Assembly: GCA_037349105.1 (NCBI GenBank)
Contig: JAYJMM010000076.1
Coordinates: forward strand, 62,001 to 126,000
Direction: 5' to 3'
Length of the DNA stretch: 64,000 nucleotides
Source: Limnomonas spitsbergensis
Lineage: Eukaryota > Chlorophyta > Chlorophyceae > Chlamydomonadales
Part shown: positions 824-63,445 of the stretch, in pieces
How positions within the stretch are numbered: position 1 is the first letter of the stretch
How the letters are laid out: the number at the start of each line of letters is the position of its first letter
Program-made: the position numbers and the translations under genes
The notes under the pieces: generated by a model
The model's input: only the letters and a program-made list of their open reading frames with translations
Told to the model about the DNA's origin: nothing
Database searches by the model: none

Positions 824-3800
824 ATCCCACCAACGTGGCCATCTACGTCGGGGCCTTCTTCTTGACGACGTTGGGCATCATCTACGTGCAGGTGTGGATA
901 AGGTTAAGATTGTAGGGTTAAGGGTTTAGGGGCTCGGCGATCTATGTCGGGCCCTCTTTAGGGTTTAAGGTTAAGATTTTTGGGTGTTGGGGCTTGGCGA
1001 TCAATGCCCGTCTCCTTTATAAAGTTCAAGGTTAGGATTTTTGGGTTGAGGGGCTGGGCGATCTATGTCGGGGCCCTCTTTAGGGTTTAGGGTTAAAAGC
1101 ATTGAGGGTGCTTCTACCTCAGGGCCTTCATTGACTTGGGCATGATGTGCGGCCAGGTGCAGGCAGGGTTTAGTGTCCAGGTTGGGGTTTAGGGTTTAGA
1201 GTTCAGTGTCCTGGGGTTGGGGTTGAGGGGATAGGGGCCCATATGCAAGATAACATCGGGCATTATATACGCCCATGTGCGGATAGGTTTCATGGGCACA
1301 CACACGCGCACCCTTCGCACCTGCCACAAGGAGAGGACAAACCCTGAACCCATGCTTAAGGAGAGGCGTACCCTTGCCCCAGACAGAAACCCCTAACCTG
1401 AAACCCTGGACGTGGAACCCTTAGCCTGAAACCCTTAACCCTGGACCTTAAACCGTCACCGTCCACCCTGGAGTTTTCCATGTCTTGTTAGCGCAGGAGG
1501 GTAAGCACCCTAGACCCTAAACCCTTTTCTCCGCCTTTTGTGCGCAGGAGGCTGAGCGCCCTAAACCCATAACCCTGGACCATAAACCCTGGACCCTAAA
1601 CCTTGGACCTGACATCCTGAACCCCGGTCTCTCAACCGTTACTGCCAACCCTAAACCCTTTTCCTGCCTTGCGATGGCAGGAGGCTGAGCGACCTAAACC
1701 CTTAACCCTAGACCTTGAACCCTGGCCCTGACACCCTGAACCCTGGCCGCTCAACTGCTACTAACACTTGACCCTTTTCATGCCTTGTGTTTGCAGGAGG
1801 CTGAGCGCCGCATCCCAATCAATTACTCCAACCGGTACAAGGCCGGCAGCCTGGCCAATCAGTCCTACCTGCCCTTCAAGGTGGGTGGGCTGAGGGTTGA
1901 GGGTTGAGGGTGCTTAGCCCTACCTGCCTTTCCAGGGGGGGGGGGTTGAGGGTTGCGTGGCTGGAGCCCTGAACCCTGAACCCCAACGAGTCCCATCCAG
2001 GCCAGCCACTCATACCTGCCCTTCAAGGGGGGTGGGTTGAGGGTTGCGTGGCTGGAGTCCTAAACCCTGCACGCCAACGAATGCCCACGCGGCCAGCCAG
2101 TCATACCTGCCCTTCAAGGGCGTTTGTGTATGGGCGACCAGGGGGGGTGGGGATTTAGGGTTAAAGATTTAGGGTTTAGGATAACGATTTTAGGGTTAAG
2201 GGTTTAGGCTAAGGGGTTAAGGTAAAGGGGTTTAGGGTTAAGGGTCTACAGGGAACCTAAGTAAATATCGTGGTGGAGGGAAATGTGAGCCGTTCAGGGA
2301 TTCTGGAAATTGCGATGAAGGATTTGGGGCCCCGGAATTCTTTGAAACCCTAACCCGAAACCTCAACCCTACATCCTATGCCTCAACCCTCGACCCTTAA
2401 CCTTAAACCCTTTAACCCTCAACCCTAAACATTGATCCCCACAGGTGAACGCTGCCGGCGTGATACCGCTGATTTTCGCCTCGTCGCTGCTGTCCCTTCC
2501 CACGGCTGCTGCCCTAAATCCTGAACCCTTAACCCTTAACCCTGAACCCTTAACCCTCAACATTGACCCCTCGCAGGTGAACGCTACCGGCGTGATGCCG
2601 CTGATTTTTGCCTCGTCACTGCTGGCCCTTCCCACGGCTGTTGCGAGGTACACCGACGCTGCCTGGGCGGACGACGTGGCGAAGTCGGTGAGTGTGTGAG
2701 CGGGGTGATAGAGGATGTAGGGTGTGAACCAGGTGTATCCATACGTTTTGGATCTAGGGGGCAAGCCAGGGTTTCTGTGGACCCTGGAGGTGAACAAGTG
2801 TTTTGAAGGATCTAGGTTGTGAATTAACACATTTTGGATGCAGGGGGTGAGCCAGGGTTTGGGTGCATCTGGGGTGTGAATCAGGGTAATGGAGGATCTA
2901 GGGTGTGAACCAGGGTTGTAGTGATTCTAGGGTGTGAACAAGGACGATGTGGATCTAGATGTAAATCTTCGGTGGATCTGAAGTGTAACCAGCTCCTTGT
3001 GGATGTGGAGTGTGGATCGGGGCTTTGGTGGGTATGAGCAAGGGCTTTGTTTCTACAAAGTGTGAACCCGTGTGAAATGCATTTGATGCACTTTTTGAAC
3101 TTTGCCCAGTGGGTACACTGCCTTACACCCTTGATAGTTCACAGTGTGAACAGCGGCCCCAGTTCACTGATAAGCATTTTTGTGTGTGGGAGGGGGGGGG
3201 CAAATGATGGTGTTGGAGAATGCAGGGGGAGGGGGCTCTGGGGAGTGTAAAGGACGAAACAAACATGCAGCCCGAACAGAGCCACCTGCATGCCGATAAG
3301 GTGACCTGGATCTGACAAGGATCTGGCCTGGATCACACCAAGATTCGACCTGGATCTGACCAGGATCTGACCAGGATCTAGCCTGGCTCTGGCTAGGATA
3401 TGGCTTGGATCTCACCAAGATCTGACCTGGATCTGAACAGGATGTGGCCTGCATCAGACCAGGACCTAACCTAGTTAAGACCATCATCCGACCTGAATCT
3501 GACCCGGATCTGACAAAGATCTGACCTGGATCAGACCCAGGTCTGATCTGGATCAAACCAGCACCTACCTTTCAAATGGAATGCACCTGAACTCGACACG
3601 ATCTGGATCCCAACTTGATCCAGGTTGGATCCCAACTTGATCCAGGTTGGATCCGAACTTGTGCTGGCGATAGTGCATAAACTGATTTGCTGCCCTGTTG
3701 TCGCCCTAAAGCCTGGACCCTAAACCCTGGTTACACCCTTAACTCTGAACCCTATACCCTGTTGCCCCCCTAAACCCTGGTTTCACCCTTAACTCTGAAC

Positions 3801-5443
3801 CATATACCATGTTGCCCCCCTAAACCCTGGTTTCACCCTTAACTCTGAACCCTATACCCTGTTGCCCCCCTAAGCCCTGGTTCCACCCTTAACTCTGAAC
3901 CCTATACCCTGTTGCCCCCCTAAGCCCTGGTTCCACCCTTAACTCTGAACCATATACCATGTTCCCCCCTAAACCCTGGTTTCACCCTTAACTCTGAACC
4001 CTATACCCTGTTGCCCCCCTAAGCCCTGGTTCCACCCTTAACTCAGAACCCTATACCATGTTGCCCCCCTAAGCCCTGGTTCCACCCTTAACTCTGAACC
4101 ATATACCCTGTTGCCCCCCTAAGCCCTGGTTCCACCCTTAACTCTGAACCATATACCATGTTGCCCCCCTAAGCCCTGGTTCCACCCTTAACTCTGAACC
4201 CTATACCCTGTTGCCCCCTAAACCCTGGTTCCACCCTTAACTCAGAACCCTATACCCTGTTGCCCCCCTAAGCCCTGGTTCCACCCTTAACTCTGAACCC
4301 TATACCCTGTTGCCCCCTAAACCCTGGTTCCACCCTTAACTCAGAACCCTATACCCTGTTGCCCCCTAAACCCTGGTTCCACCCTTAACTCTGAACCCTA
4401 TACCCTGTTGCCCCCTAAACCCTGGTTCCACCCTTAACTCAGAACCCTATACCCTGTTGCCCCCCTAAACCCTGGTTCCACCCTTAACTCAGAACCCTAT
4501 ACCCTGTTGCCCCCCTAAGCCCTTTGTCTATCTTCAGTCTGCTGCCCTATTGCCCTCCTAATAAATATAAAACCTTTGACCCGCTTGTCCCTCTTCATTT
4601 TGCTGGCCTGTTGCCCTCCCCAACATTTAACCCTGAACCCTTTTTGTCCCACCCCTCAGATTGGTCCGGTTGGCCTGCTGTACCTGCCAGTCTCCATCAC
4701 TCGTATCGTCTTAACCCCTAAACCCTGAACCGTACACATTTACCCTACACCCTGAACCCTAAACATTGAACCCTGAACCCTTTCTGTCCCGCCCCTCAGA
4801 TTGGTCCGGGTGGCCTGCTGTACCTGCCAGTCTCCATCACTCTTATCGCCTTCTTCAACTACTACTACACATTCCTACAGGTAACACGGGCTTGCCGTAC
4901 CTCTGTACCAGATATTAGGTTGGGGTTTAGGGTTGAGGCTTGAGGGTTCAATTACTACTTCACATTCCTACAGGTAACACGGGCTTGCCGTACCTCTGTA
5001 CCAGATATTAGGTTGGGGTTTAGGGTTAAGGCTTGAGGGTTCAACTACTACTACACATTCCGGCAGGTAACACGGGCCTGCCGTACCTCTGTACCAGATA
5101 TTAGGTTGGGGTTTAGGGTTAAGGCTTGAGGGTTCAACTACTACTACACATTCCTGCAGGTAACACGGGCTTGCCGTACCTCTGTACCAGATATTAGGTT
5201 GGGGTTTAGGGTTAAGGCTTGAGGGTTCAATTACTACTACACATTCCTACAGGTAACACGGGCTTGCCGTACCTCTGTACCAGATATTAGGTTGGGGTTT
5301 AGGGTTAAGGCTTGAGGGTTCAATTACTACTTCACATTCCTACAGGTAACACGGGCTTGCCGTACCTCTGTACCAGATATTGTTGTAGGGTTTAGGATTC
5401 AGGCTTGAGGGTTCAGGGCTAAGGCTTGAGGGTTAAGGGTTCA

Positions 5444-5499
<56 letters not shown>

Positions 5500-8400
5500 A
5501 CATTCCTGCAGGTAACACAGGCCTGCCATACCTCTGTACCAGATGTTAGGTTACGGTTGAGGTTTAAGGCTTGAGGTTAAAGGCTTGAGGGTTTAGGGTT
5601 AATGCTTGAGGGTTGAGGATTCAACTACTACTACACATTCCTGCAGGTAACGCGGGCCTGCCAGATGTTGCCTTGGGGTTTAGGGGTCAAGGTTTAGGGT
5701 TAAGGCTTGGGGTTCAAGGTTTAGGGTTAAGGCTTGGGGTTCAGGATTAAGGCTTGGGGTTCAAGGTTTAGGGTTAAGGCTTGGGGTTCAAGGTTTAGGG
5801 TTAAGGCTTGGGGTTCAAGGTTTAGGGTTAAGGCTTGAGGTTTCTCCTGCCGATGGCCTGCCTTGACGTTTTCCCTCAACAAAACCCTCCCCACTCATTG
5901 GCAGTTGGAGCCTAGTTTGCGGGGTTAGTCGATGGCCTGTCTTACCTCTTCCCCTCGACTCCTTTTTCCCCGGCAGTCGGAGCCTTGTTTAGAGCTTTGG
6001 ATTTAGGGTTTAGGGCTTTCCGCCGATGGCCTGTCTTACCTCTTCCCCTCAACACCACCACTCCTTGGCAGTTGGAGGCTAATTTAGGGCTTAGGGTTCA
6101 ATATTTCAGGGCTCTGTTTTAGGCCACTGTTGACCTCCCTAATTTTCTCCCCAGAATGCTGTACGTTCTCGGCAGTTGGAGCTAAGGGTTTAGGGTCCAG
6201 AGTTCTCTGCCACTGACCCGCCGTACTTTTTACCAGCGGCACCCCCTCTCCTCGACAGTTGGAGCCTAGTTTGGATTTAGGGTTTAGGGTTACGGGTTTC
6301 CCGCCTGTGGCTTGCCTCACCTCTACCCCGCGACACTCTTAATCCCAGCAGTTGGAGCCTAGTTGAGCGCTTGGGATTTAGGGTTTAGGGTTACGGGTTT
6401 CCCGCCTGTTGCTTGCCTCACCTCTACCCCGCGACACTCTTAATCCCAGCAGTTGGAGCCTAGTTGAGCGCTTTGGATTAAGGGTTACGGGTTACGGGTT
6501 AACCCGCCTGTTGCTTGCCTCACCTCTTCCCCGCGACACTCTTAATCCCAGCAGTTGGAGCCTAGTTGAGAGCTTGGGATGTAGGGTTACGGGTTACGGG
6601 TTTCCCGCCTGTTGCTTGCCTCACCTCTTCCCCGCGACACTCTTAATCCCAGCAGTTGGAGCCTAGTTGAGCGCTTTGGATTTAGGGTTACGGGTTACGA
6701 TTTTCCCGCCTGTTGCTTGCCTCACCTCTACCCCGCGACACTCTTAATCCCAGCAGTTGGAGCCTAGTTGAGCGCTTTGGATTTAGGGTTTAGAGTTACG
6801 GGTTTCCCGCCTGTTGCTTGCCTCACCTCTTCCCCGCGACACTCTTAATCCCAGCAGTTGGAGCCTAGTTGAGCGCTTTGGATTTAGGGTTACGGGTTAC
6901 GGGTTTCCCGCCTGTTGCTTGCCTCACCTCTTCCCCGCGACACTCTTAACCCCAGCAGTTGGAGCCTAGTTGAGCGCTTTGGATTTAGGGTTACGGGTTA
7001 CGGGTTTCCCGCCTATTGCTTGCCTCACCTCTTCCCCGCGACACTCTTAATCCCAGCAGTTGGAGCCTAGTTGAGCGCTTTGGATTTAGGGTTACGGGTT
7101 ACGGGTTTCCCGCCTGTTGCTTGCCTCACCTCTTCCCCGCGACACTCTTAATCCCAGCAGTTGGAGCCTAGTTGAGCGCTTTGGATTTAGGGTTACGGGT
7201 TACGGGTTTCCCGCCTGTTGCTTGCCTCACCTCTTCCCCGCGACACTCTTAACCCCAGCAGTTGGAGCCTAGTTGAGCGCTTTGGATGTAGGGTTACGGG
7301 TTACGGGTTTCCCGCCTGTTGCTTGCCTCACCTCTTCCCCGCGACACTCTTAATCCCAGCAGTTGGAGCCTAGTTGAGCGCTTTGGATTTAGGGTTACGG
7401 GTTACGGGTTTCCCGCCTGTTGCTTGCCTCACCTCTTCCCCGCGACACTCTTAATCCCAGCAGTTGGAGCCTAGTTGAGCGCTTTGGATTTAGGGTTACG
7501 GGTTACGGGTTTCCCGCCTGTTGCTTGCCTCACCTCTTCCCCGCGACACTCTGCCCCAGCAGTTGGAGCCTAGTTGAGCGCTTTGGATTTAGGGTTACGG
7601 GTTACGGGTTTCCCGCCTGTTGCTTGCCTCACCTCTTCCCCGCGACACTCTTAATCCCAGCAGTTGGAGCCTAGTTGAGCGCTTTGGATTTAGGGTTACG
7701 GGTTACGGGTTTCCCGCCTGTTGCTTGCCTCACCTCTTCCCCGCGACACTCTTAACCCCAGCAGTTGGAGCCTAGTTGAGCGCTTTGGATATAGTGTTTA
7801 GGGTTACGGGTTTCCCGCCTGTTGCTTGCCTCACCTCTTCCCCGCAACACTCCCCAGCAGTTGGAGCCTAATTAAGTGCTTTGGATGTAGGGTTTAGAGT
7901 TACGGATTTCGAGAGTTCTGCACGTGGCTTGCCTTACCTGTTCCCCACGCTTTGATTATGGTTTAGGGCTTAGGGTTTTGGGTCCTAGCCAATTGCCTGC
8001 CATACCTCTTTTCCCCGCAAGACCCATACAAGGCAGTCAAAATCCAGTTTAGGGTCCAGGTTAATGGGTTTAAAGCCGATTGCCTGCCGTACCTCTTTTC
8101 CCTGGAAGACCCTTGCAAGGCATTCAGAACCTATCTCAGGGTTCAGGCCTGAGTATTCCGCGATTGGCCTGCCCTACTCCTTACCTGGGACACCCCTTTC
8201 CTCGGCAGGGCGAAACCCTCAATCCAAAGCCCGAAGCCCTTATATGAGTTGGGATAACGGCCTTGGATTTAGGGTTTAGGGCTCTCCGCCAACGACCTGC
8301 CTAACCTATTTCCCCTATGACCCCCCCCTCTCTCTTCGGCAGTTGGAGCCCAAGGACTTGTCGGAGCAGCTTAAGAAGAGCGGCGCCGCCATTCCCACGG

Positions 8401-11400
8401 TGAGAAAACAACAACTGAAACCTTGACCCTAAAACCTGGACCCTAAACCTTAACCTTAAAATCTAATCTGAACCCTAAATCTAGGTACCGCCAACCCCTT
8501 GGTGAGAAAAAAAGAACTGAAACCTTGCCCCTGGACCCTGAACCCTGGACCCTGAACCCTGGACCCTGAACCCTGGACCCTAAAACCTGGACCCTAAAAC
8601 CTGGCCCCGAAAGCCAAAATTTAGGTGCCGCCATCACCACAGTCAGCTGCGTCAACCCCCTACTTTGTCTGTAGCGCCCGCATCAATCCAATACAACATT
8701 ATACAATACAATACAATACATTCCAATACAATATTATACAATCTAATACAATCTAATACAATATAATACAATATAATACAATACAATACAATACAATACA
8801 ATACATTCCAATACAATATTATACAATCTAATACAATCTAATACAATATTATACAATCTAATACAATACAATACAATACATTCTAATACAATATTATACA
8901 ATCTAATACAATCTAATACAATCCAATACAATATTATACAATCTAATACAATCCAATACAATATTATACAATCTAATACAATATTATACAATCCAATACA
9001 ATATTATACAATCTAATACAATATTATACAATATAATACAATATTATACAATCTAATACAATACAATACAATACATTCTAATACAATATTATACAATCTA
9101 ATACAATACAATACAATACATTCTAATACAATATTATACAATCCAATACAATATTATACAATCTAATACAATATTATACAATCCAATACAATATTATACA
9201 ATCTAATACAATATTATACAATCTAATACAATATTATACAATCCAATACAATATTATACAATCTAATACAATCTATTACAATATTATACAATCTAATACA
9301 ATACAATACAATACAATACAATACATTCTAATACAATATTATACAATCCAATACAATATTATACAATCTAATACAATATTATACAATCCAATACAATATT
9401 ATACAATCTAATACAATATTATACAATCCAATACAATATTATACAATCTAATACAATATTATACAATCTAATACAATATTATACAATCTAATACAATACA
9501 ATACAATACATTCTAATACAATATTATACAATCTAATACAATACAATACAATACATTCTAATACAATATTATACAATCTAATACAATATTATACAATCCA
9601 ATACAATATTATACAATCTAATACAATATTATACAATCTAATACAATATTATACAATCCAATACAATATTATACAATCTAATACAATATTATACATTCTA
9701 ATACAATATTATACAATTCAATACAATATTATACAATCCAATACAATATTATACAATCTAATACAATATTATACAATCCAATACAATATTATACAATCTA
9801 ATACAATATTATACATTCTAATACAATATTATACAATCTAATACAATACAATACAATACATTCTAATACAATATTATACAATCTAATACAATATTATAAA
9901 ATCCAATACAATATTATACAATCCAATACAATATTATACAATCTAATACAATATTATACAATCCAATACAATATTATACAATCCAATACAATATTATACA
10001 ATCTAATACAATATTATACAATCTAATACAATATTATACAATCCAATACAATATTATACAATCTAATACAATATTATACAATCTAATACAATATTATACA
10101 ATCCAATACAATATTATACAATCTAATACAATATTATACAATCTAATACAATATTATACAATCCAATACAATATTATACAATCCAATACAATATTATACA
10201 ATCTAATACAATATTATACAATCCAATACAATATTATACAATCTAATACAATATTATACATTCTAATACAATATTATACAATCTAATACAATACAATACA
10301 ATACATTCTAATACAATATTATACAATCTAATACAATATTATACAATCCAATACAATATTATACAATCTAATACAATATTATACAATCCAATACAATATT
10401 ATACAATCTAATACAATATTATACAATCCAATACAATATTATACAATCTAATACAATATTATACAATCCAATACAATATTATACAATACAATACAATATT
10501 ATACAATCCAATACAATATTATACAATCCAATACAATATTATACAATCTAATACAATATTATACAATCCAATACAATATTATACAATCCAATACAATATT
10601 ATACAATCCAATACAATATTATACAATCCAATACAATATTATACAATCCAATACAATATTATACAATCCAATACAATATTATACAATCCAATACAATATT
10701 ATACAATCCAATACAATATTATACAATCCAATACAATATTATACAATCCAATACAATATTATACAATCCAATACAATATTATACAATCCAATACAATATT
10801 ATACAATCCAATACAATAGTATACAATCCAATACAATATTATACAATCCAATACAATATTATACAATCCAATACAATATTATACAATCCAATACAATATT
10901 ATACAATCCAATACAATATTATACAATCCAATACAATATTATACAATCCAATACAATATTATACAATCCAATACAATATTATACAATCCAATACAATATT
11001 ATACAATCCAATACAATATTATACAATCCAATACAATATTATACAATCCAATACAATATTATACAATCCAATACAATATTATACAATCCAATACAATATT
11101 ATACAATCCAATACAATATTATACAATCCAATACAATATTATACAATCTAATACAATATTATACAATCCAATACAATATTATACAATCCAATACAATATT
11201 ATACAATCCTAATACAATATTATACAATCCAATACAATATTATACAATCCAATACAATATTATACAATCCAATACAATATTATACAATCCAATACAATAT
11301 TATACAATCCAATACAATATTATACAATCCAATACAATATTATACAATCTAATACAATATTATACAATCCAATACAATATTATACAATCCAATACAATAT

Positions 11401-14400
11401 TATACAATCCAATACAATATTATACAATCCAATACAATATTATACAATCCAATACAATATTATACAATCCAATACAATATTATACAATCCAATACAATAT
11501 TATACAATCCAATACAATATTATACAATCCAATACAATATTATACAATCCAATACAATATTATACAATCCAATACAATATTATACAATCCAATACAATAT
11601 TATACAATCCAATACAATATTATACAATCCAATACAATATTATACAATCCAATACAATATTATACAATCCAATACAATATTATACAATCCAATACAATAT
11701 TATACAATCCAATACAATATTATACAATCCAATACAATATTATACAATCCAATACAATATTATACAATCCAATACAATATTATACAATCCAATACAATAT
11801 TATACAATCCAATACAATATTATACAATCCAATACAATATTATACAATCCAATACAATATTATACAATCCAATACAATATTATACAATCCAATACAATAT
11901 TATACAATCCAATACAATATTATACAATCCAATACAATATTATACAATCCAATACAATATTATACAATCCAATACAATATTATACAATCCAATACAATAT
12001 TATACAATCCAATACAATATTATACAATCCAATACAATATTATACAATCCAATACAATATTATACAATCCAATACAATATTATACAATCCAATACAATAT
12101 TATACAATCCAATACAATATTATACAATCCAATACAATATTATACAATCCAATACAATATTATACAATCCAATACAATATTATACAATCCAATACAATAT
12201 TATACAATATAATACGTATCCTACTATCCTGTGTCCCTGGTCAGCGAGCAGCCTGCTCCTTGCGCATGCTCCTACCACATCACCAGCACGCCCCATGTTG
12301 ATGCATGCTCTCGCCCTCTCACACTGTCATCCCCCACGTCTCGCTCAAAAGCACACCCCCGTCTTGATGCAGGCACGCACACTCTCATCCCTCATACCGT
12401 TATCCCCCTCGTCTCTCTTGCTGCTTGGTGCGACCGGGCAAGCAGACCGCCGAGTATGTGGCTTCCACACGCATCCCATATTGATGCACACTGGCCCGCT
12501 CTGTTCAAATGCCCCTCCTCCTGCTGCGAGGTGCGACCGGGCAAGCAGACCGCCGAGTACGTGGCTTCCACACGCATCCCATATTGATGCACACTGGCCC
12601 GCTCTATTCAAATGCCCCTCCTCCTGCTGCGAGGTGCGACCGGGCAAGCAGACCGCCGAGTATGTGGCTTCCACACGCATCCCATATTGATGCACACTGG
12701 CCGCTCTGTTCAAATGCCCCTCCTCCTGCTGCGAGGTGCGACCGGGCAAGCAGACCGCCGAGTATGTGGCTTCCACACGCATCCCATATTGATGCACACT
12801 GGCCCGCTCTGTTCAAATGCCCCTCCTCCTGCTGCGAGGTGCGACCGGGCAAGCAGACCGCCGAGTATGTGGCTTCCACACGCATCCCATATTGATGCAC
12901 ACTGGCCAGCTCTGTTCAAATGCCCCTCCTCCTGCTGCGAGGTGCGACCGGGCAAGCAGACCGCCGAGTATGTGGCTTCCACACGCATCCTATATTGATG
13001 CACACTGGCCCGCTCTGTTCAAATGCCCCTCCTCCTGCTGCGAGGTGCGACCGGGCAAGCAGACCGCCGAGTTTGTGGCTTCCACACGCATCCCATATTG
13101 ATGCACACTGGCCCGCTCTGTTCAAATGCCCCTCCTCCTGCTGCGAGGTGCGTCCAGGCAAGCAGACCGCCGAGTATGTGGCTTCCACACGCATCCCATA
13201 TTGATGCACACTGGCCCGCTCTGTTCAAATGCCCCTCCTCCTGCTGCGAGGTGCGACCGGGCAAGCAGACCGCCGAGTACGTGGCTTCCACACGCATCCC
13301 ATATTGATGCACACTAGCCCGCTCTGTTCAAATGCCCCTCCTCCTGCTGCGAGGTGCGACCGGGCAAGCAGACCGCCGAGTACGTGCCTCCCATGCTAGC
13401 GGTGATGCCCTCATATTAATGCACATACCTGACCCTCTGATCCCTCCTGCCTCCTGCCACTCTCCTGCTGCCAGGCGCCCCCAGCCCCTCCCCCCCAGGG
13501 CCCCCAAGGCAAGCAGGGCCCCCCTCAGGGCAAGCAGACCACCGAGTGCATGACGTCCACACGCATCCCATATAGATGCGCACTGACCCGCTCTGACCCA
13601 ATGCGTTTGTCCCTCCTGCTGCTGCCAGGCGCCCTCAGGGCAAGCAGACCGTCCGAGTGCGTGACCATCACACGCATCCCAAATTGACCCGCACACTGAC
13701 CCGCTCTGACCCATAGTGCCTTTTTCCCCTCCTCCTGCTGCTAGGTGTGCTCGGGCAAGCAGACCGTCCGAGTGCGTGACCATCACACGCATCCCAAATT
13801 GACCCGCACACTGACTCGCTCTGACCCATAATGCCTTTTGTCCCTCCTCCTGCTGCTAGGTGCGCCCGGGCAAGCAGACCGCCGAGTACGTGACGTCCAC
13901 ACTCACCAGCATGTCCCTACTTGGATCCGTTTTCCTCGGTGAGCCATGGGAAAGCCTCAAAACGAATTCAATTGGATCTGTTCCCTTGGATCTGTTTTCC
14001 TCAGTGAGCCATGGGAAAGCCTCAAAACTTGAGCCTAACTTGGATCTGTTTTCTTGGATCTGTTTTCCTCGGTGAGGAATATGATAGCCTTAACAAATTA
14101 AGCTCACTTGGATCTGTTTTCCTTGGATCCATTTTCCTCGGTGAGCCATGGGAAAGCCTGGAAGCCCAGAGGTGTGCCTGCATCTCTTCTATGAGCGGAA
14201 GGATACAGCCTCAAATGCTCGAGTTTACTTGGATCAGTTTTCCTCGGCGAGACATGAGAAAGCCTCAAAACCTTGAGCTTAACTTGGATCTGTTTTCCTT
14301 GGATCCGTTGTCCTTGGTGAGCCATGGGAAAGCCTCAAAAACCTTTCTCTTGGATCTGTCCTCCTCGGTGAGCGAAAGAACAGAGCCTCAAATGCTTACA

Positions 14401-16861: not shown

Positions 16862-17705
16862 AGGGTAGAGCACAACATGCCATGTGCTGCTGTGGCAAAG
16901 TATCAGTAAGTGGAAGAGCTGTCAATGACATTACACCTTTGGGTCATGGCCAAGTACCAAGACGTGGATAAGCTGTACGATTCCATGTGAAGGGTAGAGC
17001 ATGCCTTTTTGCTTCGCCGTCGCCGAGGAGCGGGAAGGGGATGAGCAGTGCGATTCCTTGTGACGGGCTAGAGCAGGCCATGGCGCAATACCGGGTCGTT
17101 CATGGGATGTACAATTTCTTGTAAAGAGCAGAGCAGTATAAGTCCATGTAAAGAGCAGTGCGATTCCTTGTACAAACTTCGAATTTTACCTAGCTGACTC
17201 TATGTTTGCTGACGCGGCCGAGCTTCATTTATGCAGGGCTTAGAGGTGTAACGTCGTAAACAATTTCATGCAAAGAGCCTAGCAGGCAGTTAGTTTTTGC
17301 CACGACCAAGTAGCAGGAAGAAGGAAAGAAGGTGCCAGGAAGTGGATACGCTGCACGATTCCGTGTTATAAAGGCAAGAGCATGGCAGCAGGCCAATACG
17401 TTTTGCCATGGTGAAGCACCATGACGTCGTTGATAAGCTGTGGCATCCCACACAAGGGCTGGAACAGGGCATGGCCAGGTAAACGGCATTACACCTCCTC
17501 GAAAGGTGCACAGGTAAGGTGCCCACGCACGCGGCCGGGCCTTAGTGTGCATGGCCCAGAGGTGTAACATTGTTGACCTCCCAAAAGGGCAAGGCCGAGT
17601 ACTATGCCGTGGAGGTATGCTGCTGGATTCCATGTAAACAGCGTAAGCACAGAATGTCATGTTTAACCATGGCAAAGTAGCAGGAAGTGGATGAGCTGTC
17701 AATGA
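16862..17705 (+). repeat. Degenerate array of copies of the last SecY exon and 3' UTR
   Basis: The end of the coding sequence and the following bases (GCCATGGCCAAGTACCAAGA, GATAAGCTGTACGATTCC, AAGGGTAGAGCA) recur with decreasing similarity near 16945-17000, 17055-17110, 17330-17400, 17410-17470, 17590-17640 and 17660-17700. The spacing is roughly 100-150 bases. The first copy after the stop is the clearest. Confidence 0.7.
17120..17151 (+). terminator. TGTAA candidate polyadenylation signals for SecY
   Basis: TGTAA, the usual poly(A) signal of green algae, occurs at 17120-17124 and 17147-17151, about 260-290 bases after the SecY stop. The placement is reasonable but nothing else confirms use, and TGTAA also appears near 17633. 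Confidence 0.3.
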
Positions 17706-18430: not shown

Positions 18431-18437
18431 GGGAGCC

Positions 18438-28130: not shown

Positions 28131-28131
28131 C

Positions 28132-31490: not shown

Positions 31491-31493
31491 CAG

Positions 31494-50809: not shown

Positions 50810-52124
50810 ATGGATCAAAGACCAGCTGGGTCTTTGGGGCCTAGGTTGGCGGGGAGGTTGACGGCCGAGCTGATCTTGCGCAGCCGTCAATATATGAGCT
50901 GTATCAACCTCTACGAACTAGACTTGAGAGGGCACAAGATTTCTGCGATTGAAAACTTGGGAGCAACCGAGGTGTGCACGACACATTGCTGCATGGGATG
51001 TCTGGCTTTATATGTGTGGCACACTCGCTCAACATCTGCTATGTGCATGCTCCTTGCAGAATCAATTCGACAGCATAGACCTGTCTGACAACGCCATCGT
51101 GAAGCTTGAAGGCTTCCCGAGGCTTCTCCGATTAAAGCAGCTGCTACTCAACAACAACCGCATAGCGAGAATAGAAAAAAAGCTGGATGGTAGGGTGGAT
51201 GCTCGCCGCCGTGATTTACTATAATTTCCTCACCCTCCGGGTCCAGTTTGTCACCTTGTCATCTTGCTGGTGCTGCAGAATCGATCCCCGGCTTGGAGAC
51301 CCTGGTGCTTACGAACAATCGCATTAGCAACCTTCAGGTGCGACATGATCTGCAACATGCACATCTTTTTATAGTACCATAACTGCGACTGTGACTATCT
51401 CCCGTCCAGGATATGGACCCACTTGCTGGATTTACTAAGTTGGAGATGATCTGTCTGATCGGCAACCCTGTGACTACGAAGCCACACTACAGGCAAGTGT
51501 CCTGGTGTAGCGAGCGCAGTCGATGTCTACTTTATGGCTGACACATTTCGCGTCGCGTCAAACACACCTTCAGACTATACTTGATCAGCAAATGCAAGGC
51601 GCTCAAGATTCTCGACTTCAAGAAGGTTAAGAAACAGGTACGAGCCATTCGTCTGCATCGGCCCTTGCATAACCTGCTCCACATTCATATGGCAGGGCAT
51701 GGCTGATTCCCATGACGAGACTGGATGCAGTTCCATTCTAGCCTCAAATGCTGTGATTGCTTCCTCCCAGGAGCGGGAACAAGCAGAGAAGCTGTATCCC
51801 ACAGACGAGGCTGCGGCGCTAGCAGCAGCCAAGACGTTTGAACCGGACGAAGACCTCCAGGCTGCTCAGGCACAGGCTGGGGTCTCCGTAGATGCTGACA
51901 TGGCAGAAGCCGCTCCTGAGCCCAGCAGTGCTGCCGCAAGCAAGGGGCCCACGGCCCAGCAGCTAATCGCTGTCAAAGCAGCCATTGCAAACGCAGCGAC
52001 ACTAGAAGAAATCCAGCGCCTCGAGGCAGCACTGACAACCGGGCAGCTGCCGTCTGAGTTTGACTTGGGGTCAGGCTCGACAGGGAATGGAACCCAGCAG
52101 CCTGAGGCCATGCAGGTTGGGTGA
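50810..52124 (+). CDS. U2A': U2 small nuclear ribonucleoprotein A' (U2A'), 6 exons, 283 residues
   Basis: This leucine-rich-repeat protein pairs with U2B'' on U2 snRNA stem-loop IV in the spliceosome. Exons are 50810-50971, 51060-51189, 51279-51337, 51410-51492, 51574-51637 and 51771-52124, all in phase. Family landmarks: LTAELI near residue 17, YELDLRGHKISAIENLGATE, NQFDSIDLSDNAIVKLEGFP, LLLNNNRIARIEKKLD, LETLVLTNNRISNLQDMDPL, GNPVTTKPHYRLYLISKCK, ILDFKKVKKQERE, and the C-terminal AIANAATLEEIQRLEAALTT shared with plant and animal U2A'. An in-frame GTG upstream (50795) is ignored; ATG 50810 gives a 16-residue extension before LTAELI. Introns are only 72-133 bp; the fourth has a GC donor (AG/GCAAGT at 51493). 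The C-terminal third is Ala/Glu-rich. No junction repeats occur here, unlike in neighbouring genes. Confidence 0.95.
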
Positions 52125-53300
52125 CCTTGTCATGGAGCTGGGTCTAGGGATTCGGACTGAATGCTGCGCCTGCATGCAGAGGGGTAGACTGCTCATGCAT
52201 GGGGAGTGCTGATTAAGGGGAAGACTGTCTATAATGGGAGCGCTGCGCATGCATGAGAAGGGTAGGCTGCCCAGAAAGGTGTGCGCCGCGGATAAATGCT
52301 AAGGGGTAGACTGTCCGTTACAAGGAGTGCTGCGAAAGCGGATGAGCATGGGCATGCCTGCGCGCGCATCCGGGCAGGGTCAGCCAACCTGTCTTCTGGA
52401 GAGGCGGAGCAGATTTGAAACGGGCATGCTCAGAGTGGCGGAGTGGGAAAATGCACGCGTGGTGCTTGGCAGGGCGCTTGCCCTTCCTTGCGCGCCTGCC
52501 CTCTGTATCGAGTTACCTTTTTGGGTCCTTGTGCATGAGCCATGCGAAAGGAAGCATGCATGCTTGCCTCGAGGCGCCCTCATGCTGGTGATTCTTTTGG
52601 CCTTTGATGGCCGTGTGGCCAGTCGGAGCTTTGCACAGCTGTTGTGTGTATGATGCATGGCGCATTTTCTTGTGAATCCATGCGTGCGCCTTACTCCTGG
52701 AACCCATGTATCGCTGCTGCCATGGCCTTTCCAATGTCGGGAGTGCGTACTATGTTGTCGTGCCCTGGTCCCAACTGGGCGCATGAGGATGTGCTGATGG
52801 GGGTCACCCTGGCACCTAGGGCCTGCCATACCTGCATTTCAATCATTCCAACCAGTTTTTTTTGTTTTGGCGCTGTGCCATGTTGGGCTGGCGCGGGAAA
52901 CATCGGTTGAGTGCTTTGCATGTTACGGCCCAAATGTGTTAAAGGCTCCCGGACAACACTCGAGGAACTGAGCGGTTGACTGATCAGGTCAGGGGACAGG
53001 TCTAGTTAGGAATTCGCGCCAACATTGGGTGTCTGAAGTAACTTGAATTATGGGATATTTATGTGAAGTGCCCGCGCTGCTGACGTTTTGAGAGAAGCGG
53101 AACTTCTGACAGCATTTGACTTCTTGCCATGAGCTTTTGATGCAAGAGTGTTGGACGGGGCCCGAGTGGCTCAGGCGCCGAACAGGCCCCTCGTGTCAGG
53201 TGCTAGTGGTTGCATGTCATAACGGAACGGTTGCCTTGCTGTCGACACCTGACCCATGCATTGAACCTGATGCGAAATTTAGTTCAGATGAATCAACGGA
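52125..53300 (+). other. U2A' 3' UTR and intergenic sequence, no further gene
   Basis: From 52140 to 52340 a loose repeat GGGGTAGACTGC...AATGGGAGTGCTGCGCATGC recurs about four times with 55-65-base spacing. The rest is mixed sequence with short open frames. At 53157-53215 GCCCGAGTGGCTCAGGCGCC hints at a tRNA-like D arm, but no full cloverleaf forms. Confidence 0.4.
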
Positions 53301-53304
53301 AATT

Positions 53305-53366: not shown

Positions 53367-53484
53367 AAACCGTCCCGTTGAGAGAAAAAAAGGAACTTGC
53401 AGGATTACACAAGTACATGCCAAGCAGCCCAGATGGTGACAGCTAACTGACACATAAAGAGCACGCTACAAACAGGTGGGTAAA

Positions 53485-55090: not shown

Positions 55091-55100
55091 CTGATAGTTA

Positions 55101-56830: not shown

Positions 56831-56834
56831 TCAA

Positions 56835-57140
56835 GAAAACCCCAGTTCCCCACATTATGGCGGGTTTAGGTGTCAGGGTTAAGAGTTTAGGCCCCCCCTG
56901 GTTCCCCACATTATGGCGGGTTCATGTGTCAGGGTTTAGGGTTTAGGCCCCCCCCCTGGTTCCCTACATTATGGCGGGTTTAGGTGTCAGGGCTTAGGGT
57001 TTAAGCCCCCCCTGGTTTCCCACATTATGGCGGGTTTAGGTGACAGGGTTTAGGTTTTAGGCCCCCCCCTGGTTTCCCACATTATGGCGGGTTTAGGTGA
57101 CAGGGTTTAGGGTTTAGGCACCCCCCCCCTGGTTTCCCAC
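56835..57140 (-). repeat. ~60-bp array copying the donor junction of exon 57400-57141
   Basis: On the reverse strand each unit has GCCATAAT, GTGGGAAACCAGGGGGGG and CCTAAACCCTAAACCCTGAC. Five copies follow the presumed real junction at 57150-57120. Because GCCATAAT/GTGGGA recurs intact in each copy, I place the donor at 57140. Confidence 0.78.
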
Positions 57141-60100
57141 ATTATGGCAGGCAGCGCCGGAGCTGCGCCGTGCTGGTTCGGGTTAAGGTTGGACTCCCGC
57201 CGTGTCTTGTACAGCCCGGCGGCACGTGAGCGCGGGCTCAGGTGCCAATCCTCCCCACTCAGCAGGACGTCCAGCGACGAGCGGGAAGCGGTCAGCGGCG
57301 GCGCGGCGGGCGTGCGGCCGCGCGCGCCAACGCCGTCCGGCGAGCTCATTTGGCCGCATCGCGAGGGCAGCAGACGGTTCAACAACTCCCCTACCACACC
57401 CTGTTTGGGGTTAAGGGTTTGGGGTATAGGGTTTGGGGTTCAGGGTTTGGGGGTTAGGTTTTGGGGCATAGGATTTTTGGGGTTCAGGGTTTGGCCGCCG
57501 CGCGAGGGCATCAGACGGGTCAATAACTCCCCTACCACACCCTGTTTGGGGTTAAGGGTGTGGGGTATAGGGTTTGGGGTTCAGGTTTTGATGTTTAGGT
57601 TTTGGGACATAGGGTTTGGGGTTCAGGGTTTGGCCGCCGCACGAGGGCAGCAGACGGTCTAACAACTCCCCGACGACACCCTGTTAGGTTGGGGTTTGTT
57701 GGGATTGGTTGGGGTTTGTTGGGGTTGGTTGGGGTTGGCTGGAGTTGGTTGGTTGGGGTTGGGCTTGGGGTTAGTTGGGGTTTGTTGGGATTGGTTGGGG
57801 TTGTTTGGTTGGTTGAGGTGGGTTGGGGTTGGGTTTGGGGTTGGTTGGGGTTGGTTAGGGTGGGTTGGGGTTGTTTGGTTGGTTGAGGTGGGTTGGGGTT
57901 GGGTTTGGGGTTGGTTGGGGTTTGTTGGAATTGGTTGGGGTTGTTTGGTTGGTTATGGTGGGTTGGGGTTGGGGTTGGTTGGTTAGTGTGGGTTGGGGTT
58001 GGTTGGGGTTGGTTGGTTGGTTAGGGTGGGTTGGGGTTGGTTGGGGTTTTTGTCGCTACGGTGTAAGGAAAGACGGGGCAAAGTGGCAAACCTACTGGTG
58101 TCGTGACGGTTGGCCTCTATGCAGATGTTCAATACAGTTGTACACACGGTCAAATTCAAACCTGAAAAAGGGTCCACCTGCTAACAACCGCCACCAACCA
58201 CCACTACCTGCTTGTGGATCGAAACCCCAGTCAACGGTCACATTCAAATAGGCAAGGTCTACCAACCACCTACCACCACTAACTGCTGGTGGATAAACAG
58301 AAACATGGTCAAATTCAAAACTGGAGGCAGGCTTCACCAACCACCAACCACCATAACCACCAACCACCCGAGAGCCAGGTTCGAAACGGCCTGGAAGCGG
58401 TGCTCACACACAGTCACATTCAAATGGAAGTTCTGGGCGTTAATTCTGAGTCTATTACTTCTGCTAGTGCTGCTGTTGCTGCTGTTGCTACTGCTGTCAG
58501 ACCCAGCCAGATATAGTCAGATCCGGTTATTCCTCACCTCGTCAGGCAGCGAGTCATACACCCACTTGGCTGCCTGCGCTCTCCTGGGCTCTGCAAGGTT
58601 GGTCGAGGTCCACGGCCGGGCGGCCTCCCCGCACCCATCACCTACGCAGCGGCCGCCAACATCCACAGTCGCCGGGCGACGCCGGAGGGCCGCCGCCGCC
58701 GCTGCCGCGGCAGCGTTGCGCGGCGTCCACGGCGACGGCAGTGAGGGCGCGGCGGCGCCCTGGCCGGACATCGGCGGCGGCGCCGCCGTGTCCTGGTGCG
58801 CGCCCCGGCTGGAGCGGGGGCTGTCCAACAAGGCGGGGGCCGCTCCGACGTTGGGCGAGCAGGACCGGCGGGGCCCTGCGCCGGAGGAGGCGAGCAGCTG
58901 CTCCGGCTGCGTCCTTGCACGTGCGATGCCGTGCGGCGCGCGGGGCAGCAGGGCCGATCGCGAGTCCTGGGATGCGCGCGGGGAGGAGGAGGCGTCCGGG
59001 TGACGCTCGGCAGCGTGGGTTGCGAGTTCCCGGCCGGGGCTCTTGGAGTGCGCCGGAAGGTGGTCCACGGTCAACGACGGCAGGCCGAAGACGGTCAAAC
59101 GGCGCGCCTGCCGCTGCTGCGTCCGCGGCATCGCCGCCGCCGCTCCCTTTGCAGCGGACCGGGGGCTTTCCTCCGCGGCGTCCGAAAAACGAGGCGCAAC
59201 AGCTGAGGTGAGGTCTAATCGGAATCTAGGCTGCGGGCGCGGTTGTAGCTGCGGCTGCGGCAGGGAGGTCCCCCCCAGCGGCGCCCGTGCGTTGATCGGT
59301 CCGCAGCCGGATCTGATCGGCGCCTCGGCGGCGGCCGCTGCTCCTGGCCGCTCGCCGGCTGCCCCGCCCAATTCCGGGCGGTTCTGCGCGCCGCCCTCGG
59401 GCAGAGACTTCGGAGCATCGTCCCCCATTCCTGGCAAAAAAACAACCGCCGCCGGCAAGCCTTCTCCTTCCAGGCCGGTCGGCCGGTCGCCGTCCTGCGC
59501 CAGGAACGCCTGGCCGCTTGGCCGGTCGCTGTCCTGAGCCGAGAATGCAGCCAATGCCGTGGCGGCGGCCTTCCCCGCCATGGCCGTGGATAAGTCCTGG
59601 GTTGTGTTCCCTTGAGCCCTGAAAGAGGGGGGAAAGAGTGGACGAGTGTGGTGCAAGTGTGATGCAAGTGTGGATAGGTCCTGGGCCGTGCTCCCTTGAG
59701 CCCTGAAAGAGGGGGAAAATAGTGAACGAGTGTGATGTGCAAGTGTGACGTTAGTGTGGTGCATGTGAAAGAGGGGGAAAACGTGTGATGCAAGTGTGAT
59801 GTGCAAGTGTGGCGTATGTGTGGTGCATGTGTGGTGCATGTGAAAATGCGGCCCGTCCAACTGTCACACACATGCAGTCTCACCTGACCCGCCTCTCCCG
59901 TGCATGTGACACACACCTGTACAACTGACCCACCCACCCACCCATGCACCTACGCACCCTCCCTCCTACCTGCCATAGACACACCCTCCCACACACCCAC
60001 CTATGACACACACTCTCCCATCTGACCCAGCCACCCAGCCACACCCACACCCAGCCACACCCACACTAGCCACACCAGTCACGCCCCCCCCCCCCCCCCA

Positions 60101-63100
60101 CACACACACCCTCTCTTATCTGACTCACCCACTCACACTCACACATGACTGATTGACCATCTGACACATACTCACAACCACCTGATTTCCTCTCGTGCCG
60201 CCTCCCCCCCCCCCCCCACACACACAGCTTCCCACCTGAAACCCACACACAGCCTCCCACCTGATTTCCTCCAGTACCGCCTCCCACCTGATCCCCCCTT
60301 CTCCCACCTCCCACCTAACTTGCCACACACACACACAGCCTCCCACCTAACTTGCCACACACACACAGCCTCCCACCTAACTTGCCACACCCACACAGCC
60401 TCCCACCTGAAACCCACACACAGCCTCCCACCTAACTTGCCACACCCACACAGCCTCCCACCTAACTTGCCACACACACACAGCCTCCCACCTAACTTGC
60501 CACACCCACACAGCCTCCCACCTGAAACCCACACACAGCCTCCCACCTAACTTGCCACACCCACACAGCCTCCCACCTAACTTGCCACACCCATACAGCC
60601 TCCCACCTAACTTGCCACACCCACACAGCCTCCCACCTAACTTGCCACACCCACACAGCCTCCCACCTAACTTGCCACACCCACACAGCCTCCCACCTAA
60701 CTTGCCACACACTCACAGCCTCCCACCTAACTTGCCACACCCACACAGCCTCCCACCTGAAACCCACACACAGCCTCCCACCTAACTTGCCACACACACA
60801 CACAGCCTCCCACCTGAAACCCACACACAGCCTCCCACCTAACTTGCCACACCCACACAGCCTCCCACCTGAAACCCACACACAGCCTCCCACCTAACTT
60901 GCCACACCCACACAGCCTCCCACCTAACTTGCCACACCCACACAGCCTCCCACCTAACTTGCCACACACACACAGCCTCCCACCTAACTTGCCACACCCA
61001 CACAGCCTCCCACCTAACTCGCCACACACACACAGCCTCCCACCTGAAACCCACACACAGCCTCCCACCTAACTTGCCACACACACACAGCCTCCCACCT
61101 AACTTGCCACACACACACAGCCTCCCACCTAACTTGCCACACACACACAGCCTCCCACCTAACTTGCCACACACACACAGCCTCCCACCTAACTTGCCAC
61201 ACACACACAGCCTCCCACCTAACTTGCCACACCCACACAGCCTCCCACCTAACTTGCCACACACACACAGCCTCCCACCTAACTTGCCACACACACACAC
61301 TCAGCCTCCCACATGTCACCCCCCCCCACACACACCTCCTCACCCCCCCACCCATCCACACAGCCTCTCAACTGCCACAAGCACACAGCCCCCCCACCTG
61401 ATTTCCTCCAGTGCCGCCCCCCCCCCCCCACACACACAGCCTCCCACCTGAAACCCACACACAGCCTCCCACCTGAAACCCACACACAGCCTCCCACCTG
61501 ATTTCCTCCAGTGCCGCCTCCTGCATCTCCCGCATGAAATCAAAAGAATGGTCGTCCCGGTCATCGGCCTTTGCCGCGGCTGCAGAGCCCTCTGCACCCG
61601 AGGGGGTGGACTCGGCGGCTGTCCTTCGGTCCGACTCCCAAGCCTGCACATGTGAGGGATGGGGAACAGGGGTAGGAGGCATGGGGGTTACATGGATGAT
61701 CATCGAGGAGTTACAATGGTTGTCCCGTTTATTGGCCTTGGCCGTGGCTGCAGAGCCGTCCGCACCCGAGGTCCGTCGGTCTGGCACGAACGCCTGCACA
61801 CGTGAGGGATGGGGCACAGGGGTAGGGCAGGGGGGTCGCGGCCTTTTGCCTCGGCTGCAGGGCCCTCCGCACTCGAGGGTGTGGACTCAGCGGCCGTCCT
61901 TCGGTCCAACTTGAAAGCCTGCACACGTGAGGGATGGGGCACGGGGGTAGGGCAGGGGGTTGTCGGCCTTTTGCCTCGGCTGCAGGGCCCTCCGCACTCG
62001 AGGGTGTGGACTCAGCGGCCGTCCTTCGGTCCGACTCGAAAGCCTGCACACGTGAGGGATGGGGCACGGGGGTAGGGCAGGGGGTTGTCGGCCTTTTGCC
62101 TCGGCTGCAGGGCCCTCCGCACTCGAGGGTGTGGACTCAGCGGCCGTCCTTCGGTCCGACTCGAAAGCCTGCACACGTGAGGGATGGGGCACGGGGGTAG
62201 GGCAGGGGGGTTGTCGGCCTTTTGCCTCGGCTGCAGGGCCCTCCGCACTCGAGGGTGTGGACTCAGCGGCCGTCCTTCGGTCCGACTCGAAAGCCTGCAC
62301 ACGTGAGGGATGGGGGTAACCACGCTTCCATGGAGCAGTTACAAACCTTATAATACGTCAGTTACAAGCCTCTTAATTAAGCAATTACAAGCGGTTATAC
62401 GGGGCAGTTGCACGCCATGTAAAATAGTAGTTACATGCCAGGTCATCAAGCAGGCTGACGAAACCTTTCATGTTGTACAAGGAACACAAAATGCTAAAGA
62501 CGTTTTTTGGGGGGGGGGTGATATTTGTTCTGGAGTGTTGAGGCGTTTACATTTATATTTATTAACTCATCCACTTTGTCTGGAGTTTATTAATAGGGAA
62601 CTCAGCAGTTCCCCCCTAAACCCTAATAGGGAACTCAGCAGTTCCCCCCTCCTGATTTACCACTCATTCATTCTCTCATTCACCCAACACAGTGACACAC
62701 CCTTCATGTGTGGTGTCTTATCAAAAACAACCATCTTGCATGTGTCCCCCATTATTCATTGATTTCCCGTAATTAATTGATTGGTTTTCCCGTAATTAAT
62801 TAATTGATTCCCCAGTGATTAATTGAGTAATTGCCCCCCCCTCCCACATCATCTAGCATTTATTGAGAGATTAATCTACCCCCCCCCCCCACACACACTG
62901 ACCATTATCAGACTATGGGTGAGTATGTTTTCCCCCCTTATTCATTGACTCATTTGCGACCCCCCTCCCCCCACACATACCATCGTCAGACTATGGGTAC
63001 TTGATATGGTGTCTATCAAAATATTATTCTGTATTTATCAAAATATTATCCAATATCAAAGTATTTAATAAAAAGATTATCCCAAGATTATCCAGCATTT

Positions 63101-63445
63101 ATCAAAATAGTATCTTTAAATTATCCCACAATTATCCAGTATTGATCAAAATATTATCCAATATCTATCAAAAGATTATCCAATATCCCCCCCCCCCCCC
63201 CAAACACACACACATACCCTCTCTTCCACCCCCCCCCCCCCACTCCTCGGGTGCAGTCAGCCTGACAAAGTCCATCGGCGTCATCAATCCATCTCCCCCT
63301 CCCCCTCCCCCCCCCCCCCCCTCCCCCCCCGCACACCTCCTCTGGTGCGTTCAGCCTGACGAGGTCCATTGGCGGCATCTTGACCGGCTGGTTGACCCCA
63401 TTATGCTGCTGCTTTAGAGTGGTGGAGGAGGCCAGGGTCTTCAGC
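57141..63445 (-). CDS. Unidentified protein gene, partial, 4 exons seen
   Basis: Exons in gene order: 63445-63337, 61643-61498, 59618-58538 and 57400-57141. Phases agree at each junction, and every border has AG before and GT after. The translation begins within a codon and runs through TTLKQQHNGVNQPVKMPPMD, LVRLNAPEE, AWESDRRTAAESTPSGAEGS, DRDDHSFDFMREMQEAALEE, then a 360-residue exon rich in Ala, Pro, Ser, Arg and Gly. That exon ends KWVYDSLPDE, followed by GVVGELLNRLLPSRCGQMSS and VLLSGEDWHLSPRSRAAG. I recognise no domain. It looks like a largely disordered protein with short conserved-looking segments. Both gene ends lie outside what I can define: the 5' end is beyond position 64000 and the 3' end is below 57141. 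The introns show the same junction-copy arrays as SecY and the serpin, which supports the exon calls. Confidence 0.6.
57470..57665 (-). repeat. Two copies of the acceptor of exon 57400-57141
   Basis: On the reverse strand AACCCCAAACAG, GGTGTGGTAGGGGAGTTGTT and GAACCGTCTGCTGCCCTCGC is the true exon start at 57400. Copies end at about 57545 (GAGTTATTGACCCGTCTGAT) and 57683 (GAGTTGTTAGACCGTCTGCT). They are spaced about 140 bases and mixed with CCCTGAACCCC. Confidence 0.8.
57684..58055. repeat. GGTTGGGGTTGGTTGGGG minisatellite
   Basis: Irregular units of TTGGGGTTGGTTGGGGTTTG with TTGGTTGAGGTGGGTTGGGG. On the gene's sense strand this is CCAACC-rich and occupies the 3' half of intron 58537-57401. 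Confidence 0.93.
58100..58395. repeat. ~125-bp repeat with ACCAACCACC, 2-3 copies
   Basis: CGGTCACATTCAAA...AACCAACCACCACTA and GCTGGTGGAT recur near 58140-58240, 58240-58340 and 58340-58420. On the sense strand it reads GGTGGTTGGT and could pair with the CCAACC block at 57684-58055 in the same intron. Confidence 0.75.
59640..59860 (-). repeat. Copies of the acceptor of exon 59618-58538
   Basis: On the reverse strand CCCCTCTTTCAG, GGCTCAAGGGA, CACGGCCCAGGACCTATCCA at 59715-59670 copies the true acceptor at 59630-59580. Beyond it, TCACACTTGCATCACAC repeats continue to 59850. Confidence 0.82.
59870..61497 (-). repeat. 24-34-bp array derived from the donor of exon 61643-61498
   Basis: On the reverse strand the exon end GAGGAAATCAG with donor GTGGGAGGCTGTGTGTGGG is copied first in full (near 61405-61385, 60270-60245 and 60195), then as shorter units GTTTCAGGTGGGAGGCTGTG and GTTAGGTGGGAGGCTGTGTG with GCAA. 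About 35 units fill 60290-61310. All frames are open, which produces spurious Gly/Cys/Trp-rich proteins. Confidence 0.85.
61690..62312 (-). repeat. ~125-bp array of five copies of the start of exon 61643-61498
   Basis: On the reverse strand each unit has CCCTCACGTGTGCAG then exon bases coding AFESDRRTAAESTPSSAEGP and AAEAKGR. The true exon reads AWESDRRTAAESTPSGAEGS and continues to a donor. The copy nearest the exon (61805-61690) is the most diverged; the four outer ones are almost identical. Confidence 0.92.
62313..62995. other. Intron of the unidentified gene, low complexity, no exon
   Basis: The stretch has poly-G (62510) and poly-C tracts (62830, 62880, 62960), a doubled TAGGGAACTCAGCAGTTCCC (62592 and 62627) and repeats of TTCCCGTAATTAATTGATT (62763-62815). 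Confidence 0.45.
63000..63190. repeat. ~20-bp AT-rich repeat ATCAAAATATTATCCAATAT
   Basis: About nine imperfect units of TATCAAAATATTATCC between C-rich blocks, inside intron 63336-61644. Confidence 0.85.
63191..63336 (-). repeat. Poly-C tracts and a donor copy of exon 63445-63337
   Basis: On the reverse strand ATGGACTTTGTCAGGCTGAC and TGCACCCGAGGAG then TGGGGG at 63275-63235 copies the true exon end (ATGGACCTCGTCAGGCTGAA, CGCACCAGAGGAG, donor GTGTGC). It is surrounded by long C runs that are G runs on the sense strand. Confidence 0.82.

Follow-up and report, generated by a model that had tools for sequence, protein, structure and literature searches.

Most splice junctions of three genes in a 64,000-bp stretch of the genome of Limnomonas spitsbergensis, a green alga that lives on snow (contig JAYJMM010000076.1, here C76, positions 62001-126000; this whole stretch is called the window) have been copied into the neighbouring intron. 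The genes encode plastid SecY, a serpin and a protein without recognised relatives (gene 3), and the copies are direct and on the same strand, many of them head to tail. It is likely that the introns of many, though not all, genes of this alga have been expanded by such duplication. The process itself was probably local tandem duplication that is blind to exon borders, goes further in some genes than in others through higher activity or better tolerance, and is filtered by selection.

Gene models were rebuilt for these three genes and for the gene of U2 snRNP protein A' (U2A'), whose start lies 249 bp from that of the serpin on the opposite strand and which serves as an internal control. The exons of SecY (forward strand) and serpin (reverse strand) were placed by homology, with single open frames, matching phases and introns of the form GT or GC...AG, and one open frame runs across all exon joins in each of the four genes. 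Pfam matches identify SecY, the serpin and an LRR protein, the last being named U2A' by sequence matches in the PDB. Gene 3 (reverse strand) has four exons, good splice sites and one open frame of at least 531 amino acids (aa); no Pfam domain was found in it and no relative among 7993 candidates scored, so its exons are defined by open frame, phase and splice sites only. Two of the 22 introns with both ends read are GC-AG introns (serpin intron 1 at 50394 and U2A' intron 4 at 51493).

The copies were detected by a junction test, in which a query of 30 exon and 30 intron nucleotides (nt) was compared with its own intron and the alignment had to cross the junction. Controls were 544 cross-intron comparisons (34 x 16) and 30 dinucleotide shuffles per junction. 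A score of at least 19 was reached in the own intron by 25 of the 34 junctions of SecY, serpin and gene 3 (two at exactly 19), and the best of the 544 cross-intron comparisons scored 18. Twenty-seven junctions lie above both controls, and the best shuffle exceeds 18 at a single junction, with 22 against a real score of 52. None of the ten U2A' junctions has a copy by this test. At least one junction is copied at 18 of the 20 exons (8/8 in SecY, 6/8 in serpin, 4/4 in gene 3), the exceptions being the first two serpin exons, and the original prediction, made from the letters of the window, that copies stand at nearly every exon of the three genes is thereby confirmed. The three SecY introns just upstream of the window behave in the same way, all six junctions being copied with scores (20-46) that exceed the respective cross control; their 24 cross comparisons include one at 21 and one at 18. 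The junction-copy pattern of the window genes is real and strong.

The copies vary widely in size and number, and some dimensions first given for them need revision. The best copy in the 27 junction families holds 8-85 exon nt, so that the lower limit of the predicted 8-65 exon bases stands and the upper one does not, and at most 68% of an exon is present in its best copy. Units of about 34-145 bp had been predicted; the median distance between copies is 32-205 bp in 23 families and 307-1219 bp in the other four. Where one to about 30 copies had been counted, up to 20 per junction pass the test. The expected fall of similarity with distance from the real junction is a tendency: the farthest copy is worse than the nearest in 11 of 17 families, but better in five and equal in one. 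The copies obey a rule of side, since 21 of 22 matches in the window are either exon starts copied upstream (11) or exon ends copied downstream (10), the other being mid-exon (Fisher p = 3e-6, mid-exon match left out). Several intron arrays are absent from the scored junction copies: 20 bp x 175 (8684-12208), an AT-rich satellite inside a SecY intron, 50 bp x 16 (3718-4523) and 15 bp x 48 (36714-37433). In one junction copy of SecY exon 4800-4880 the exonic ACT run is now a perfect (ACT)n microsatellite (5444-5499).

Base composition agrees with the proposal that the introns were expanded from their edges. Growth from both edges is apparent: in 14 of 17 introns the G-skew is higher in the first 300 nt than in the last 300 (Wilcoxon p = 0.0003), and the count is again 14 of 17 when 40 nt at each end are left out (p = 0.001). 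Telomere-like hexamers follow the same division, with 36 of G-type and 10 of C-type in the first intron parts and 6 and 72, respectively, in the last. Both observations fit intron halves that have each grown from their own edge and inherited the composition beside the splice site. Pairing of intron ends through telomere-like inverted arms was considered and rejected, the own-intron duplex energy exceeding the cross-intron mean in only 9 of 17 cases.

Outside the window, about 280 kb of further sequence (loci L004-L046) was analysed, and exon-edge copies recur on C41, C124, C110, C16 and C103 and elsewhere on C76. Partial copies at an exon edge were found in five of 23 coding segments hand-picked from 42 given by a codon score (trained on 1797 codons; the 19 dropped had low-complexity, repeat or doubtful frames), against 1 of 405 when each exon was compared with unrelated stretches. 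One positive segment (L035) had been seen by eye beforehand and had its start trimmed to the inner splice site; the other positive segments have approximate borders and flanks cut by locus ends. Among the sampled segments, those of pyruvate kinase have no exon-edge copies, and one of two Sec61 exons has one. In this gene a plain-looking intron of 1.3 kb contains, 130 bp upstream of the following exon, a copy of that exon's start together with the AG, at 71% identity (L009:1373-1424), which suggests that the process is older or more widespread than the visible arrays show. Loci of the actin family, found by Pfam match and not by their repeats, have copies at 10 of 24 exons, in three of five loci. 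The exons were taken as the Pfam matches with 24 nt on each side, under a start/end rule looser than that for the coding segments; the set comprises all matches in the five loci, and matches on C36, C118 and C75 lie outside it. Its controls gave 6 of 201, all between actin-family loci, where homologous exons may be expected, and 0 of 144 (24 x 6) against six non-actin targets. Two actin genes share their last 39 residues. In L042 the matched exons are 103-1944 bp apart and five of six have copies; in L043 they are 179-345 bp apart and none has an exon-edge copy, and another actin-family gene lacks such copies too. All 22 matches outside the window obey the side rule (7/7 in coding segments, 15/15 in the actin family; 14 starts upstream, 8 ends downstream; Fisher p = 3e-6). 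The idea of a genome-wide process is thus supported by recurrence on five further contigs and elsewhere on C76, but it has to be restricted, as U2A', L043, the other actin-family gene and pyruvate kinase lack copies. Duplication in general is uneven as well. The sampled stretches, three of them beside the window, came from contig ends or round positions on four contigs; those of 10 kb away from the window are 1% to 99% duplicated (mean 23%, n = 17). L015, L033, L037 and L039 are self-duplicated over 98-99%, and one of them is the start of a contig. The genome paper puts the mean intron at 788 bp and unclassified repeats at 22.78%, and the parts examined do not mention copies of exon borders (PMC11228838). 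The published annotation comprises 18,277 genes and is accompanied by IsoSeq reads, and the paper groups the alga with Chlamydomonas ICE-L, UWO 241 and C. eustigma (PMC11228838).

The original prediction singled out the splice junction as the object that is copied, and in this respect it is not upheld. Copies were found at 12 of 17 5' junctions and 13 of 17 3' junctions, at 99/153 and 105/153 points lying 30-300 nt inside the introns, and at 1/14 (5' side) and 3/15 (3' side) points lying 60 nt into the exon. Borders at stop codons are copied in three of eight genes tested, all three among the five that bear junction copies. The SecY stop codon is spanned by five alignments (best 78% over 110 columns), and a single stop-crossing copy occurs in each of two actin-family genes; the sole control of this test is the five genes without a match. 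Because the share of duplicated points stays level between the intron interior and the junction, and because stop borders, which are never spliced, are copied too, an engine directed to junctions is disfavoured, and splice junctions as a special target are not supported. In a simulation of border-blind duplication, starting from 90-bp introns and rejecting events that alter the message, 53-70% of junctions became copied.

Several results weigh against a duplication that is wholly indifferent to its position. At similar decay the blind simulation copies 53% of junctions and 69% of interior points, compared with 74% and 67% in the data, and a simulation with 30% of events aimed at junctions (81% and 74%) comes nearer to the data in ratio. 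At 45 nt into the exon, copies cover 8 of 32 points, where the blind model predicts 39-46% and the partly aimed one 51-58%. Of the five array-bearing genes with a readable stop codon, serpin and L042, both rich in junction copies, gave no stop-codon copies; in all, five of the eight genes tested gave none. Arrays number 10 in the window's intergenic DNA, where they occupy 7% of the bases, and 62 in the introns of the three genes, where they occupy 53-70%. Since the data show more junction copies and a shallower exon reach than the blind model, a mild bias towards borders may exist. A uniform genome-wide process is insufficient, since intergenic DNA, presumably at least as free to expand, carries so few arrays; either certain genes are preferred, or selection and transposon turnover hide the duplication elsewhere.

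Under the favoured reading, tandem duplication in units mostly of about 30-200 bp would have occurred repeatedly and without regard to exon ends. After an event across a border, the outermost copy would remain the real border and the inner exon fragments would turn into intron, or into trailer past a stop codon; such an event could persist because the mRNA is unchanged. Events wholly inside an exon would be selected against and lost, selection thus acting as the filter, and repetition together with minisatellite expansion would yield arrays that hug the exon edges and carry decoy splice sites. The molecular step may have been replication slippage or template switching. Judging from the open frames, the outermost splice sites should be those in use, as the gene models require. 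The splice dinucleotide is kept in 23 of 29 diverged 5' copies (six junctions, with a single serpin junction supplying 15) and in 14 of 17 diverged 3' copies (11 junctions). The raw retention profile is biased by alignment; with the bias removed, G is kept at 0.77 and T at 0.59 in 5' copies (flanks 0.78), and A at 0.87 and G at 0.92 in 3' copies (flanks 0.75; first four exon bases 0.84-0.92). Purging of decoy splice sites is therefore not in evidence, because the inner dinucleotides are kept about as well as the flanks, and slightly better at 3' sites.

A different cause of the duplications would be a process directed to introns or junctions, for example one coupled to transcription or splicing by way of RNA-DNA hybrids or breaks related to the spliceosome. 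Such a process, copying exon borders gene by gene, would have expanded introns across the genome and left up to 20 decoys per junction for the spliceosome to ignore; an alga would then have to keep strictly to the outermost site (exon definition). It would account for the concentration of arrays and telomere-like motifs in introns and not in intergenic DNA, for a junction fraction above that of the blind simulation at similar decay, and for the distribution of long introns by gene, 17 of 17 in the three genes vs 0 of 5 in U2A' (Fisher p = 4e-5), with copies in three actin-family loci and not in two. This explanation nevertheless appears rather unlikely, given that there is no peak at the junction, that stop-codon borders are also copied and that the 1.3-kb Sec61 intron has one old copy and no arrays. 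Quite unlikely, too, are telomere-like G-rich tracts as unstable seeds, at which stalled replication would copy DNA within about 100 bp, exon ends included. Telomere-like hexamers reach 5.3-10.7 per kb in the introns of the three genes vs 1.5 per kb between genes, C124 starts with repeats of the same motif (CCCTAAA), and the first unit contains a hexamer in 19 of 27 junction families vs 42% of random intron 100-mers, a comparison not matched for length, as units measure up to 200 bp. However, eight of the 27 families have no hexamer, a G-quadruplex motif occurs in only seven of 27, and L042 has its many copies despite 2.0 hexamers per kb; the motif is common in the arrays and is not needed.

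The copies themselves might have a function, in stepwise intron removal (recursive splicing) or in the regulation of splicing. Many keep AG|GT, which is formally a ratchet point, yet the G and T of 5' copies are kept no better than their flanks, and although A and G of 3' copies exceed theirs, the first four exon bases come close to the same level; use of the decoys would seem improbable on these figures. Repeats are hard to assemble, and PacBio continuous long reads are error-prone before polishing. The assembly was made from reads of this type, but their L50 of 32.9 kb (PMC11228838) far exceeds the longest array of the window (about 3.5 kb), the copies differ from one another, and the pattern recurs on six contigs with the exon side respected in 43 of 44 cases. 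With reads several times longer than any array of the window, an assembly artefact is very improbable. That the introns are recently inserted introner elements, which do occur in green algae (PMC9860276), is scarcely credible: no junction sequence is common to the introns, none of the 544 cross-intron comparisons reaching 19, and for two SecY introns the open frames of relatives (P0085, P0086, P0087) break, by eye, at the same places. The earlier distinction from introners, that each array is specific to its own junction, is in this way borne out.

Border-blind local duplication has a known counterpart. No named mechanism had been known to the original prediction, but one exists for the basic step, tandem genomic duplication, described for intron gain (PMC3443670, PMC4974935, PMC3629103), and in fission yeast two introns are built of 24-nt exon-derived repeats (PMC3443670; PMC3629103). 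In that route, as in the one proposed here, a local duplication makes exon sequence into intron and leaves the protein unchanged (PMC3443670; PMC3629103). Intron gain by this route, however, arises once and makes a new intron, whereas here existing introns seem to have been enlarged at their edges repeatedly, at most junctions and in several genes, with units that span a splice site already present; the open frames of relatives, compared by eye, suggest that two of the SecY introns are older. Introners share with the present case the creation of intron sequence in bulk in algae (PMC9860276), but the junction comparisons reveal no family common to introns, and the copies here are local and direct. 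Intronic minisatellites are likewise tandem arrays of tens of bp within an intron, with a unit usually unrelated to the exon; here, in contrast, the unit extends over the exon border and includes coding sequence as well as a splice site, and each junction family is confined to its own intron. The pattern is most economically explained by a sweeping, pervasive and new form of the tandem duplication already described for intron gain. No description of the exact pattern was found in the open-access literature, searched by titles and the beginnings of abstracts, which does not establish its absence from print. Duplications that straddle a border cost the protein nothing, and they would offer a simple and apparently neutral route to many-fold intron growth. 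The copies also provide a natural series of near-identical competing splice sites beside real exons, a ready test of site choice, and the presence of compact genes next to expanded ones, with a similar contrast between two actin genes, makes the cause of intron length directly testable.

Table 1. Genes of the window and copies of their exon borders (positions in the window; nt, nucleotides; SecY gene, C-terminal part)
Feature	Position	Strand	Details	Basis
Plastid SecY gene, C-terminal 8 exons	824..16861	+	824-891, 1797-1880, 2577-2687, 4800-4880, 8343-8399, 13860-13938, 14940-15028, 16769-16861 (stop)	homology, open frame, Pfam
5' junction of SecY exon 824-891	922..1290	+	decayed copies	two scored (17, 19), others by eye
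3' junction of SecY exon 1797-1880	1480..1690	+	three copies	junction test
5' junction of SecY exon 1797-1880	1921..2120	+	~91-bp copies	array scan, junction test
3' junction of SecY exon 2577-2687	2393..2513	+	132-bp copy, 68 exon nt	array scan, junction test
3' junction of SecY exon 4800-4880	4646..4714	+	copy	junction test
5' junction of SecY exon 4800-4880	4881..5650	+	93-bp array, 7 copies; at least 27 exon nt, GT intact in 7/7	array scan, junction test
3' junction of SecY exon 8343-8399	5860..8340	+	101-bp array (16 copies, 6270-7910) and degenerate copies, ~8 exon nt each; only two pass junction test	
5' junction of SecY exon 8343-8399	8485..8640	+	two copies	one scored, another by eye
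3' junction of SecY exon 13860-13938	12415..13859	+	103-bp and 115-bp arrays, 13 scored copies	
5' junction of SecY exon 13860-13938	13939..14476	+	7 copies ~68 bp apart	array scan, junction test
3' junction of last SecY exon	16630..16680	+	copy	junction test
SecY stop codon and trailer	16942..17698	+	copies spanning both, five alignments across stop	stop-codon test
Serpin gene, 8 exons	33253..50560	-	50395-50560, 47696-47848, 45639-45820, 44607-44707, 39551-39641, 37542-37688, 36043-36138, 33253-33571	homology, open frame, Pfam
3' junction of last serpin exon	33572..33853	-	three copies	array scan, junction test
3' junction of serpin exon 39551-39641	39642..42150	-	122-bp array, 20 scored copies; 61-62 exon nt in most	
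5' junction of serpin exon 44607-44707	43280..44606	-	89-bp copies (7 scored) in two blocks	
5' junction of serpin exon 45639-45820	44924..45638	-	32/130-bp array, 16 scored copies	
3' junction of serpin exon 45639-45820	45821..46310	-	three scored copies	junction test
U2 snRNP protein A' gene (control)	50810..52126	+	five introns of 72-133 bp, no copies	open frame, Pfam, PDB sequence matches
Gene 3, 4 exons	57141..63445	-	63337-63445, 61498-61643, 58538-59618, 57141-57400	open frame, phase, splice sites
3' junction of gene 3 exon 57141-57400	57401..57685	-	~141-bp copies	
3' junction of gene 3 exon 58538-59618	59619..59759	-	84-bp copy	
5' junction of gene 3 exon 61498-61643	60217..61497	-	copies, partly as 30-bp array	
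3' junction of gene 3 exon 61498-61643	61771..62315	-	125-bp array, up to 85 exon nt	

A search by 31-mers gave no related algal contigs in viral and prokaryote collections; three contigs of the viral collection found with 18-mers were set aside as phage-like, not algal, in the parts examined. Between the SecY and serpin genes the window contains two identical direct repeats of 805 bp (21057-21861 and 28131-28935), separated by roughly 7 kb; no target-site duplication is obvious at their borders. The pair encloses an open frame of 675 aa and is probably a recent retroelement of the long terminal repeat (LTR) type.

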